Source of the DNA: Alentia gelatinosa
Lineage: Eukaryota; Annelida; Polychaeta; Phyllodocida; Polynoidae
Direction: 5' to 3'
NCBI GenBank assembly: GCA_950022655.1
Contig: OX465579.1
Span: 44,619,950-44,683,949, forward strand
DNA length: 64,000 nt
Shown here: positions 35,201 to 38,200 of the stretch, piece by piece
Layout of the letters: every line of letters begins with the position of its first letter
Numbering within the stretch: the stretch's first letter is position 1
Program-made: the position numbers and the translations under genes
The notes under the pieces: model-generated
The model's input: the letters and a program-made list of their open reading frames with translations, nothing else
What the model was told of the DNA's origin: nothing
The model's database searches: none

Positions 35201-38200
35201 ACCACCCAGACGGCCTGGTGTGTCCAGTGTGCACACAGAGGTACATACAGCCAGACCAAACTTGGGGACCTGTCCGACATATTGACACGCCAAACAGCCA
35301 GCACATGTGGAGAGCTTCGCCACCCAGCGAGGGCAAACAAACGCACTGAGATAACCCATTTATTATGCAAGGCTCGCCTATTAATGGTAGACGGGTCGGG
35401 GCCGAGGCCTGGCGCTATTTTATTGACGTCGCTATTATACACGCTTTCCTCCGACCTAGCGGCGAGCGTGGGACAAACGACTGCCAGTTACAAACCCCCA
35501 CGCCACATACTACTAACCCACTCTTCTCCCCCCCCCCCCCCCCCCCCACCTCCTCCCGACCGCCTGCCCATTCTCCATTAAAGTGTGATGCTGAATGGTT
35601 GGGAACGTATTTAATTTTCATTATCACATTGTTATTTACTTCACTGTTCGTTAAGTTTGGACTTCTTTGAGACCTGGTTTCACCCCTACAACTTTTGTGA
35701 AAGCGGAGAATGTGTTCATATAGAACTTACTCGTGGAAATATTTGCATTTTGATGTATTTTGGAGTAGACCAAACTAATACACTAAGCCACAGAACCGTA
35801 GGAGGGTGCATAATAAGGCATCTCTTCATGATACAACAACAGAAAACTATAGTAAAGAATGACGGTCGAACCTTAGACGGTACTGCTACTTTTTAGGGGG
35901 CGCGTGTGTGATGACGAAATGAAAGATTTGTTTTTAGCAATTTTCATTTCTGTCGCTCACTTTGTGTGTCTGTCTCATGGGGGAACAGGAAGCTAGTCGC
36001 AAACCAAAACTGTAACTCAAAATTAACATATAAGGGGAATGCCCGGTATATGACTCAACGTGCTGTTGTTATGACCGTAACGTAACACTGTCTGTTGGAG
36101 ATGCTAGCGGCTATACGTATTTACTTACAATAATTCACTCGGACTCTTCTACATTTCGTTCTGGAAATTATTAGTATTTTCGAGCCGAGCTTTCCATGTG
36201 TTTGGTTATTACATTGGCTTTACAGACCGGTTTGTCATCTCCCAACACAATAACACTGACAAGTTGGGGTGGCGGGCGAGGCCGGGAACGTTGGGGGCCG
36301 TAATGGTGCCGTGCATACGGCTTATCTCCACAAGTCAGATTTCATACATTATGCAAACTTAATTTGCTGGGGTCCTCTCTGTTTTTTTTTCTGGTATTGT
36401 TATTATTAGCGCCGTCAGCCGCGGTTGTCGGCTGGCGTTGGAGACTGGCGCCAACCGGCACATCAATTGAGTTGTACGACTGCAACGTTAAAAGTTATAT
36501 GAGATTTGGGAGGGACTGGGCTCGGTGTGCGGAACGACGCGTGGCTGGCGGCGCGATAGGCCCAGTCCCAAGCCTAAGCCCAGGCCTAGCAAGGCATGGG
36601 GCAGGTGCACCGGCCACCTGACTTGGCTTCATCGATCTGGGGTTGTAAGGGATAAAAATAGAACGCTCCTGTTCCCCTCTCCACCCCCGACACTGACACT
36701 CTCCTCCCCTTGCCCTTCCGTCGATCATTGCTGGATTTATTCTAGCTGAGTAGTGTCTCCATCATTTTATGTTTGTCTGTGATTAGCATTGGAGGTCTGG
36801 TCCGTGCACGGTCTGTTTTTTCAATGCCGTTAAATGTTTGATGTGGAACGCCCATGTAATGTAGTAAGAGTAACAAAGAGAGTTTCGGCATTAAGCGCCA
36901 AAATAAATCATGGCGTTCTCGTATTTAATCCAGGTAATGTGGTTGTCCTCATTTGAAGTAAATTTGCGAATTAAGATGTTTCAAATATTCATCGACCCAT
37001 CACGGACCAACCTCTGCTATGAATTATTGACGTTTTTCTCTTTATGCAGCATGAGGCCGTTTTAAAACGCACTACACTTTTATTACTTTTTAACACTAAG
37101 ATTAATATATTCCATATCGATTTGCCCATTCTAGGGTCTACTGATAATGAGTCACTTCTTTCAAACTTGTAGTTTTCCTTTTGGTAGATGTCCTGTCCCT
37201 TGATTGTTTTAAATGTTTTGGTTGTACTTGTGTTTGTAGGTATCGTATGCACGACCAAGCAGTGAAAGCATAAAGGGTGCAAACCTGTACATAAGTGGAC
37301 TGCCAAAATCCATGACACAACTCCAACTGGAAAATATGTTTGCCTCAAGTGGCACAATAATAAACTCCAGAATTCTTTGTGACCACAGTACTGGTAGGCA
37401 TTGCTACTACAATTTTTATACAGCCCTACCCAAACCAACCACCTCCAATCTCACAGAGCCTCCTAGTCTCCGAGCTTAATGATTCTGCAAACTCATGCCG
37501 TTGCTTTTATCCATGCCAAACACCAAATAATTTGATAGGCCCTAGATGGCGGAAAAGGGCGGGGGTTGATAAAGAGATTTTTTCCCCAAGTCATAAATTA
37601 AAATATCGGGAAATATAAAAAAACGGATTTTTGGCCTCGGGTGGGGTGAAGAAAAATGACAAACGGTGTCTGCAGCGTGTTGGTGGAAGCGGATGAAAAA
37701 AGTCGGTCATCGGCGAGACGGCAATTGTTTTAGTGTGTGTTGGGGGGTGTGATGGAAGAGCCTGAGAGCCGTTGTCATGGTGACGTGGAGATGAGGTGCG
37801 TGGTGTGGGTAGGCTGGGAAAAGGTGATGGATGGCCTGTAGGTGGTGAGAGTCGCTAACGTCACACTACGCTACCACCACAACTACTGTCCCACTATGAC
37901 TTGACTGTCAGACATATTATACACATACATGAATGATGCTGGCTTTCTCGTACTTACCCCCGATCCTGTCCTTTCCTTAGGTATCTTACGCCCGACCAAG
38001 TAGTGAAAGTATAAAGGGAGCAAATTTGTATATATGTGGGTTGGCCAAGAATATGACCCAGATGGAATTGGAGCAGCTTTTTGCACCCTGTGGCAGGATA
38101 ATCACATCTAGAATTCTCTATGATAACACAACAGGTTGGTAGCGTCACTGCCTCCTGACTCGTCCTCGCTTTTTGTTCTGCAGAATTGTCATATGCACTG

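Follow-up and report, generated by a model that had tools for sequence, protein, structure and literature searches.

Why does an ELAV/Hu gene carry two similar exons for the same half of its second RRM, and how old is this arrangement? ELAV, a standard marker of neurons, regulates neural splicing and 3' ends. In Alentia gelatinosa, the window (i.e., the whole stretch of 64,000 nucleotides analysed here) contains a member of this family in which two neighbouring 154-nt exons, designated A and B, each encode a version of the first half of RRM2. Mainly by comparison of sequences, we consider it highly probable that these are ancient tandem-duplicated, alternative RRM2 exons, most likely predating the split from the molluscs.

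The ELAV/Hu Gene in the Window

The gene is a member of the ELAV/Hu family. Its two predicted isoforms score 504.4 and 499.6 bits against TIGR01661 (cut-off, 279.1 bits), each contains three RRMs (PF00076), with the third following the hinge, and the relatives of the protein with solved structures are HuC, HuD and HuR. All exons lie on the plus strand, and those for the RRMs span 27 kb. The first half of RRM1 is encoded at 25996..26236, where a HuD fragment matches with 77% in tblastn and where splice sites and frame agree; tblastn, splice sites and frame likewise place the second half of RRM1 (32725..32828; 104 nt) immediately 5' of the exon pair. Exon A (37240..37393; 154 nt) contains Ser in RNP2 and its peptide ends in IINSRILCD, while exon B (37981..38134; 154 nt) contains Cys in RNP2 and ends in IITSRILYD; a 587-nt intron (37394..37980) separates the two. 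The same lines of evidence identify the second half of RRM2 together with the start of the hinge at 46608..46839 and the last coding exon, comprising RRM3 and the stop codon, at 52840..53161.

At the 5' end, an exon of 402 nt (11260..11661), encoding 134 residues with a Gln-rich end, is probably part of this gene and its 5' coding exon, given that its ATG is located immediately 3' of an AG, its frame is open, and its donor (CAG/GTGCGC) would allow an in-frame join to the RRM1 exon. With this exon, the ELAV protein would have a long N-terminus. The relative P0001 begins with MQITTAST instead. P0001, a protein of 370 residues from a 4567-nt contig (source code lgn), is 97% like the window protein outside the exon and contains exon A, which agrees with that of the window at 50 of 51 residues. 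Considering the 4567 nt of this contig versus the 27 kb spanned by the RRM exons here, it probably derives from spliced RNA. A 48-nt hinge microexon (48733..48780), recognized by its AG/GT flanks and by the presence of its peptide in P0001, is probably alternative. A second acceptor is present 9 nt 5' of the RRM3 exon (52831-52840), and the P0001 peptide fits the use of this acceptor together with the microexon.

Within the species' own assembly (1.23 Gb, 101 contigs), the RRM search listed 95 matches, and eight loci were compared. Three of these, overlapping on one contig (L004, L005 and L008 on contig C2, ~43.535-43.539 Mb), make up a second ELAV-like gene with a single open frame of 398 residues, which is 54% identical over RRM1-RRM2 and has NLYIRNLPKEM in RRM2. 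The exon pair is absent from the examined stretch of this locus, which, by its sequence, looks like a retrocopy.

Two Exons for One Half of RRM2

Both exons are preceded by AG and followed by GT, start in phase 0, and end one base into a codon. Of their 154 bases, 108 match, as do 37 of the 51 residues; residues 1-18 are identical, and 14 residues differ. The first-pass annotation of this DNA had reported the coordinates, the lengths of 154 nt each, the phases and the 37 matching residues, and all of these were exact on recount; its description of 18 identical leading residues and 14 differences was equally accurate, and the flanking exons do end at 32828 (upstream) and start at 46608 (downstream). 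When the RRM2 half of HuD was used as a query against the 64-kb window, exons A and B were found at E values of 2e-21 and 3e-20, and the sole further match was the RRM1 exon of the same gene (4e-7), so that the likeness of A and B is not a matter of chance. Their ungapped repeat measures 162 nt and is, thus, barely longer than the exon itself.

The base differences are distributed over codon positions 1, 2 and 3 as 13, 5 and 28. By the NG86 method, dN between A and B is 0.17 and dS is saturated and not computable; for codons 1-18, the values are 0 (dN) and 2.7 (dS). Heavy synonymous change combined with 18 identical leading residues implies that the pair is old and that both copies have been under purifying selection on the protein. 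As judged from these substitution patterns, A/B is an old tandem duplicate maintained by such selection, and long ago the 154-nt exon that encodes this half of RRM2 would have been duplicated in tandem. That one copy might instead be a recent or decaying duplicate devoid of function is hardly credible in view of the extent of synonymous change, the 37 of 51 residues kept, the intact splice sites and frames, the near-identity of exon A in P0001, and the presence of the pair in molluscs, as discussed below.

Since 154 is not divisible by three, the reading frame needs exactly one of the two exons. With A alone or B alone, translation reaches the same stop codon. A message with neither exon reads ...KTIKGYPKG followed by a stop, and one with both reads ...STGILRPTK followed by two stops; in either case, the premature stop comes within eight codons, and decay of such messages would be the expected outcome. 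Tandem duplicated mutually exclusive exons are defined as adjacent and internal, of similar length and with equal phases (PMC3228551). A and B agree in length and phase, have compatible splice sites, and are homologous, and inclusion of neither or of both breaks the protein. The earlier interpretation of the two as mutually exclusive exons is, hence, supported by the frame arithmetic, and also by the finding of the pair in molluscs. A and B would be spliced as alternatives, and, as the frame shows, a productive mRNA needs one of them and only one.

An arrangement of this kind could also serve to lower the ELAV level, if only one copy were used for protein and inclusion of the second, as a poison exon, truncated the message. 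Double inclusion does halt translation early, and ELAV genes control their own level, which fits this explanation. However, either copy by itself preserves the frame while encoding a conserved half of an RRM, purifying selection acts on the amino acids of both, a constraint that a poison exon does not need, and both versions occur in full-length octopus models; we, therefore, regard a poison exon as very improbable and retain the reading of two protein-coding alternatives.

The positions of the differing residues were assigned from the DSSP line of an AlphaFold2 model made for P0001, the close relative described above, where the exon position equals the residue number minus 116. The whole-chain pLDDT of this model is 72, with the RRM blocks mostly above 85, and its pTM is 0.35. 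According to the model, one of the 14 differences is located in beta1, two in the beta1-alpha1 loop, six in alpha1, one in the turn before beta2, two in beta2, and two in the loop that follows. The Ser/Cys difference at exon position 19 is the fourth residue of LYISGL/LYICGL, the RNP2 motif. The first-pass annotation had put Ser/Cys next to RNP2, which requires correction, as this residue lies inside the motif.

The sheet of an RRM faces the RNA, and its helices are on the opposite face. Exchanging A for B would, on the modelled fold, change the RNA contact modestly, through RNP2 and beta2, and the face of helix alpha1 to a larger extent. The swap would, thus, tune RNA contact slightly and protein-protein contact more, the larger effect on protein contacts being suggested by the location of helix alpha1 away from the RNA. 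Partners or further ELAV copies could bind at this helix face.

How one exon is chosen was approached from the sequence surrounding the pair. Spacing as a means of exclusion, for which an intron below about 60 nt would be needed, is ruled out by the 587 nt between A and B. The minor-class consensus is absent at the donors of both exons. RNA structure above chance was not found in the 587-nt intron (fold z, +1.23; 87 of 100 shuffled versions folded equally well or better), and competing RNA pairing of the Dscam type is not indicated inside this intron, whose best inverted repeat (21 nt; 37425-37445/37793-37813) was equalled by 17 of 60 shuffles. Rfam yielded no match at gathering score in the window. 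Against a nine-letter donor consensus, exon A matches at six positions and exon B at seven; the three other RRM donors match at eight and the first coding exon at seven. The acceptor of A is U/G-rich and that of B is C/U-rich. Sub-optimal donors together with differing acceptors suit a choice made by an RNA-binding regulator, and, rather than spacing or pairing within the intron, a trans-acting regulator probably acts on the sub-optimal donors of A and B. ELAV itself would be an attractive candidate, but self-regulation finds no support in the AU4-6 motifs within 300 nt, of which there are three at A and one at B versus 2.0 expected at each.

Occurrence and Origin of the Exon Pair

Relatives were taken from three overlapping lists (the best 120 of 3206, the best 120 of 210, and 38 of 38 matches), amounting to 253 proteins. 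These were chosen by similarity to the gene under study, and clustering at 90% identity can hide sister isoforms; the searches having been made with this gene, the sample is biased, and the absence of a type in a species is uninformative. Among the 253 proteins listed, 31 have Cys at the RNP2 site, 222 have Ser and one has Lys, with the Mya arenaria protein P0003 counted for both Ser and Cys. Names are available for 19 of the 31 Cys entries, and all 19 are spiralian, namely molluscs, flatworms, the annelid Dimorphilus, the bryozoan Bugula, and Seison, a relative of the rotifers. The search with exon A returned a few spiralian matches first and then mostly single exons of arthropods (among the best 120 of 210), which places the A-type near the general ELAV exon and makes it not distinctive. 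Judged by these matches, the B-type is the version with a mark of its own.

Mya arenaria provides the clearest counterpart. Its ELAV4-like protein P0003 contains, in one model, the A-type version ISGLPKSLTQLDLEKLF, followed by eight residues and then by the B-type version ICGLPKSLTQHELETIF; it is the sole protein with two versions among the 253 listed. In the exon B search, it scores 139 bits and the next best match 94, and it outscores the latter because both versions are present. The eight-residue linker looks like a device of the gene predictor for keeping the frame, and a second Mya model, P0048, from a scaffold of equal length, has the A-type version alone. In Octopus bimaculoides, the predicted isoforms X3 (Ser) and X5 (Cys), from scaffolds of equal length, are identical at 309 of the 310 residues aligned outside the exon and at 45 of 52 inside; further differences between them lie in unaligned stretches, one N-terminal and one ahead of the second half of RRM1. 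By sequence, they look like models of one gene. The Mya and Octopus entries are gene models. An oyster-like open reading frame, P0227, comprises the final 20 residues of an A-type exon, then 78 further codons, and then a B-type exon that is identical to that of Crassostrea angulata X2, and can be read as the end of the A-type exon, a short intron and the B-type exon.

Comparison with other spiralian elav genes, as the first-pass annotation had proposed, has, thus, revealed the pair complete and in tandem in Mya, partially in P0227, and as two models in Octopus; on this comparison, the same pair is very probably present in the oyster-like and octopus genes. Its presence in molluscs also disfavours a dead copy confined to this species, which the annotation had named as an outcome that would speak against it. 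The order, A followed by B, is the same in the window, in Mya P0003 and in P0227.

Two further observations concern the Ser/Cys site. Nucula tumidula P0231 carries the B-type Cys in RNP2 on an otherwise A-type exon, a mix that may reflect either an exchange between exons or a sequencing matter. The Ser and Cys forms of flatworms were considered as isoforms and rejected: outside the exon, among nine pairs of proteins compared, Macrostomum P0235 is 56% alike both to P0240 and to P0244, and Schistosoma P0238 and Heterobilharzia P0241, which belong to different genera, are 49% alike. On this basis, the flatworm forms resemble paralogues more than isoforms.

Whether the pair arose once or several times was addressed by residue contrasts and trees. 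In a tree of 40 rows, the species of the window is placed outside the molluscs, in a position that lacks resolution, with Platynereis as the nearest named row. The residues distinguishing A from B run in parallel rather than crossed at five sites versus one between the window and Mya, at three versus one between the window and Octopus, and at four versus none between Mya and Octopus. A tree of the exon (52 columns) comprised 58 of 59 segments, since an insertion in the Planococcus sequence spoils its extraction. It places A and B labels on opposite sides of a branch with a support of 77/77, corresponding to a single label change, which is partly circular considering that the labels (A, 14 rows; B, 12 rows; none, 32 rows) were set by eye after the sequences had been seen.

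Alternatively, the exon might have been duplicated independently in each lineage, the two copies being mutually exclusive in every species. In line with this, the octopus versions, alike at 45 of 52 positions, are closer to each other than most between-species comparisons, and AU tests leave a grouping of A with B by species standing (p 0.084 for the window, 0.268 for octopus). Across types, window B matches Mya A at 38 of 52 positions and Mya B at 37, and the Nucula exon, as noted above, combines features of both types. Repeated duplication, however, would have to account for the Ser-first, Cys-second order in the window and in Mya and for the A-type end preceding the Cys version in P0227, for the contrasts of Ser/Cys at position 19 and of Leu with another residue at position 28 that recur in all three species whose pair is complete, and for the one A/B label change that the free tree needs (77/77, with labels set by eye). 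We consider independent duplications unlikely. Since a bivalve has the same pair in the same order, as oyster-like and octopus genes very probably do, it most likely predates the split between the lineage of the window and the molluscs, and, on the sequences compared, a single origin before that split is likely. That the common ancestor with molluscs, and perhaps that of all Lophotrochozoa, already possessed an RRM2-half isoform switch in a neuronal ELAV is conceivable, at slightly less than an even chance.

Related Splicing Systems and Implications

A close parallel in the literature is vertebrate U2AF1, a splicing factor in which exons Ab and 3 (U2AF35a/b) are, as in the present case, tandem duplicates within an RRM-type domain, and where transcripts with both or neither carry stops and undergo decay (PMC5224494). 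The variant residues there map to RNP2, to a helix and to a short region of disorder; in contrast to the gene described here, U2AF1 is another gene, of vertebrates, its domain is a UHM, and seven residues vary instead of 14 (PMC5224494). Among ELAV genes, honey bee elavl2 with its exons 3a and 4a-4d is similar in that alternative splicing affects RRM2 and the hinge, yet there the exons bring small additions to the RRM2 loop and hinge or use alternative sites in them, and exon 4 is skipped in some cases; a duplicated exon replacing the first half of RRM2 is not described in the part of this source available, and the word "mutually" is absent from its main text (PMC8553928). According to the same source, a hinge microexon is known from ELAV/Hu genes of vertebrates, insects and others (PMC8553928). 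The gene described here, of the same family, also has a microexon at this position (48733-48780); being situated in the hinge, exons of this kind are unlike A/B, which lie in an RRM. Human tandem duplicated exon substitutions constitute the same class of event, with old homologous exons being swapped, and neither ELAVL nor U2AF1 appears in the main text of that study (PMC9741552).

Within the literature searched, which included few subscription journals, no description of such an exon pair in any ELAV gene was found. The octopus isoforms are available in public databases as predictions, so that the pair is visible there to anyone aligning X3 and X5. The mechanism is, thus, ordinary, and its occurrence in an ELAV gene over this range is the aspect for which no report was found.

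A conserved swap of half of RRM2 would add a second layer of control on ELAV and would repeat the logic of vertebrate U2AF1 in a different splicing regulator and in other animals. This raises the question of whether the A and B proteins have different targets or partners and are made in different neurons. If the arrangement holds true, studies using elav as a marker in these phyla were viewing two proteins, and the choice between A and B may distinguish types of neurons, or their maturation, in spiralian nervous systems over half a billion years.
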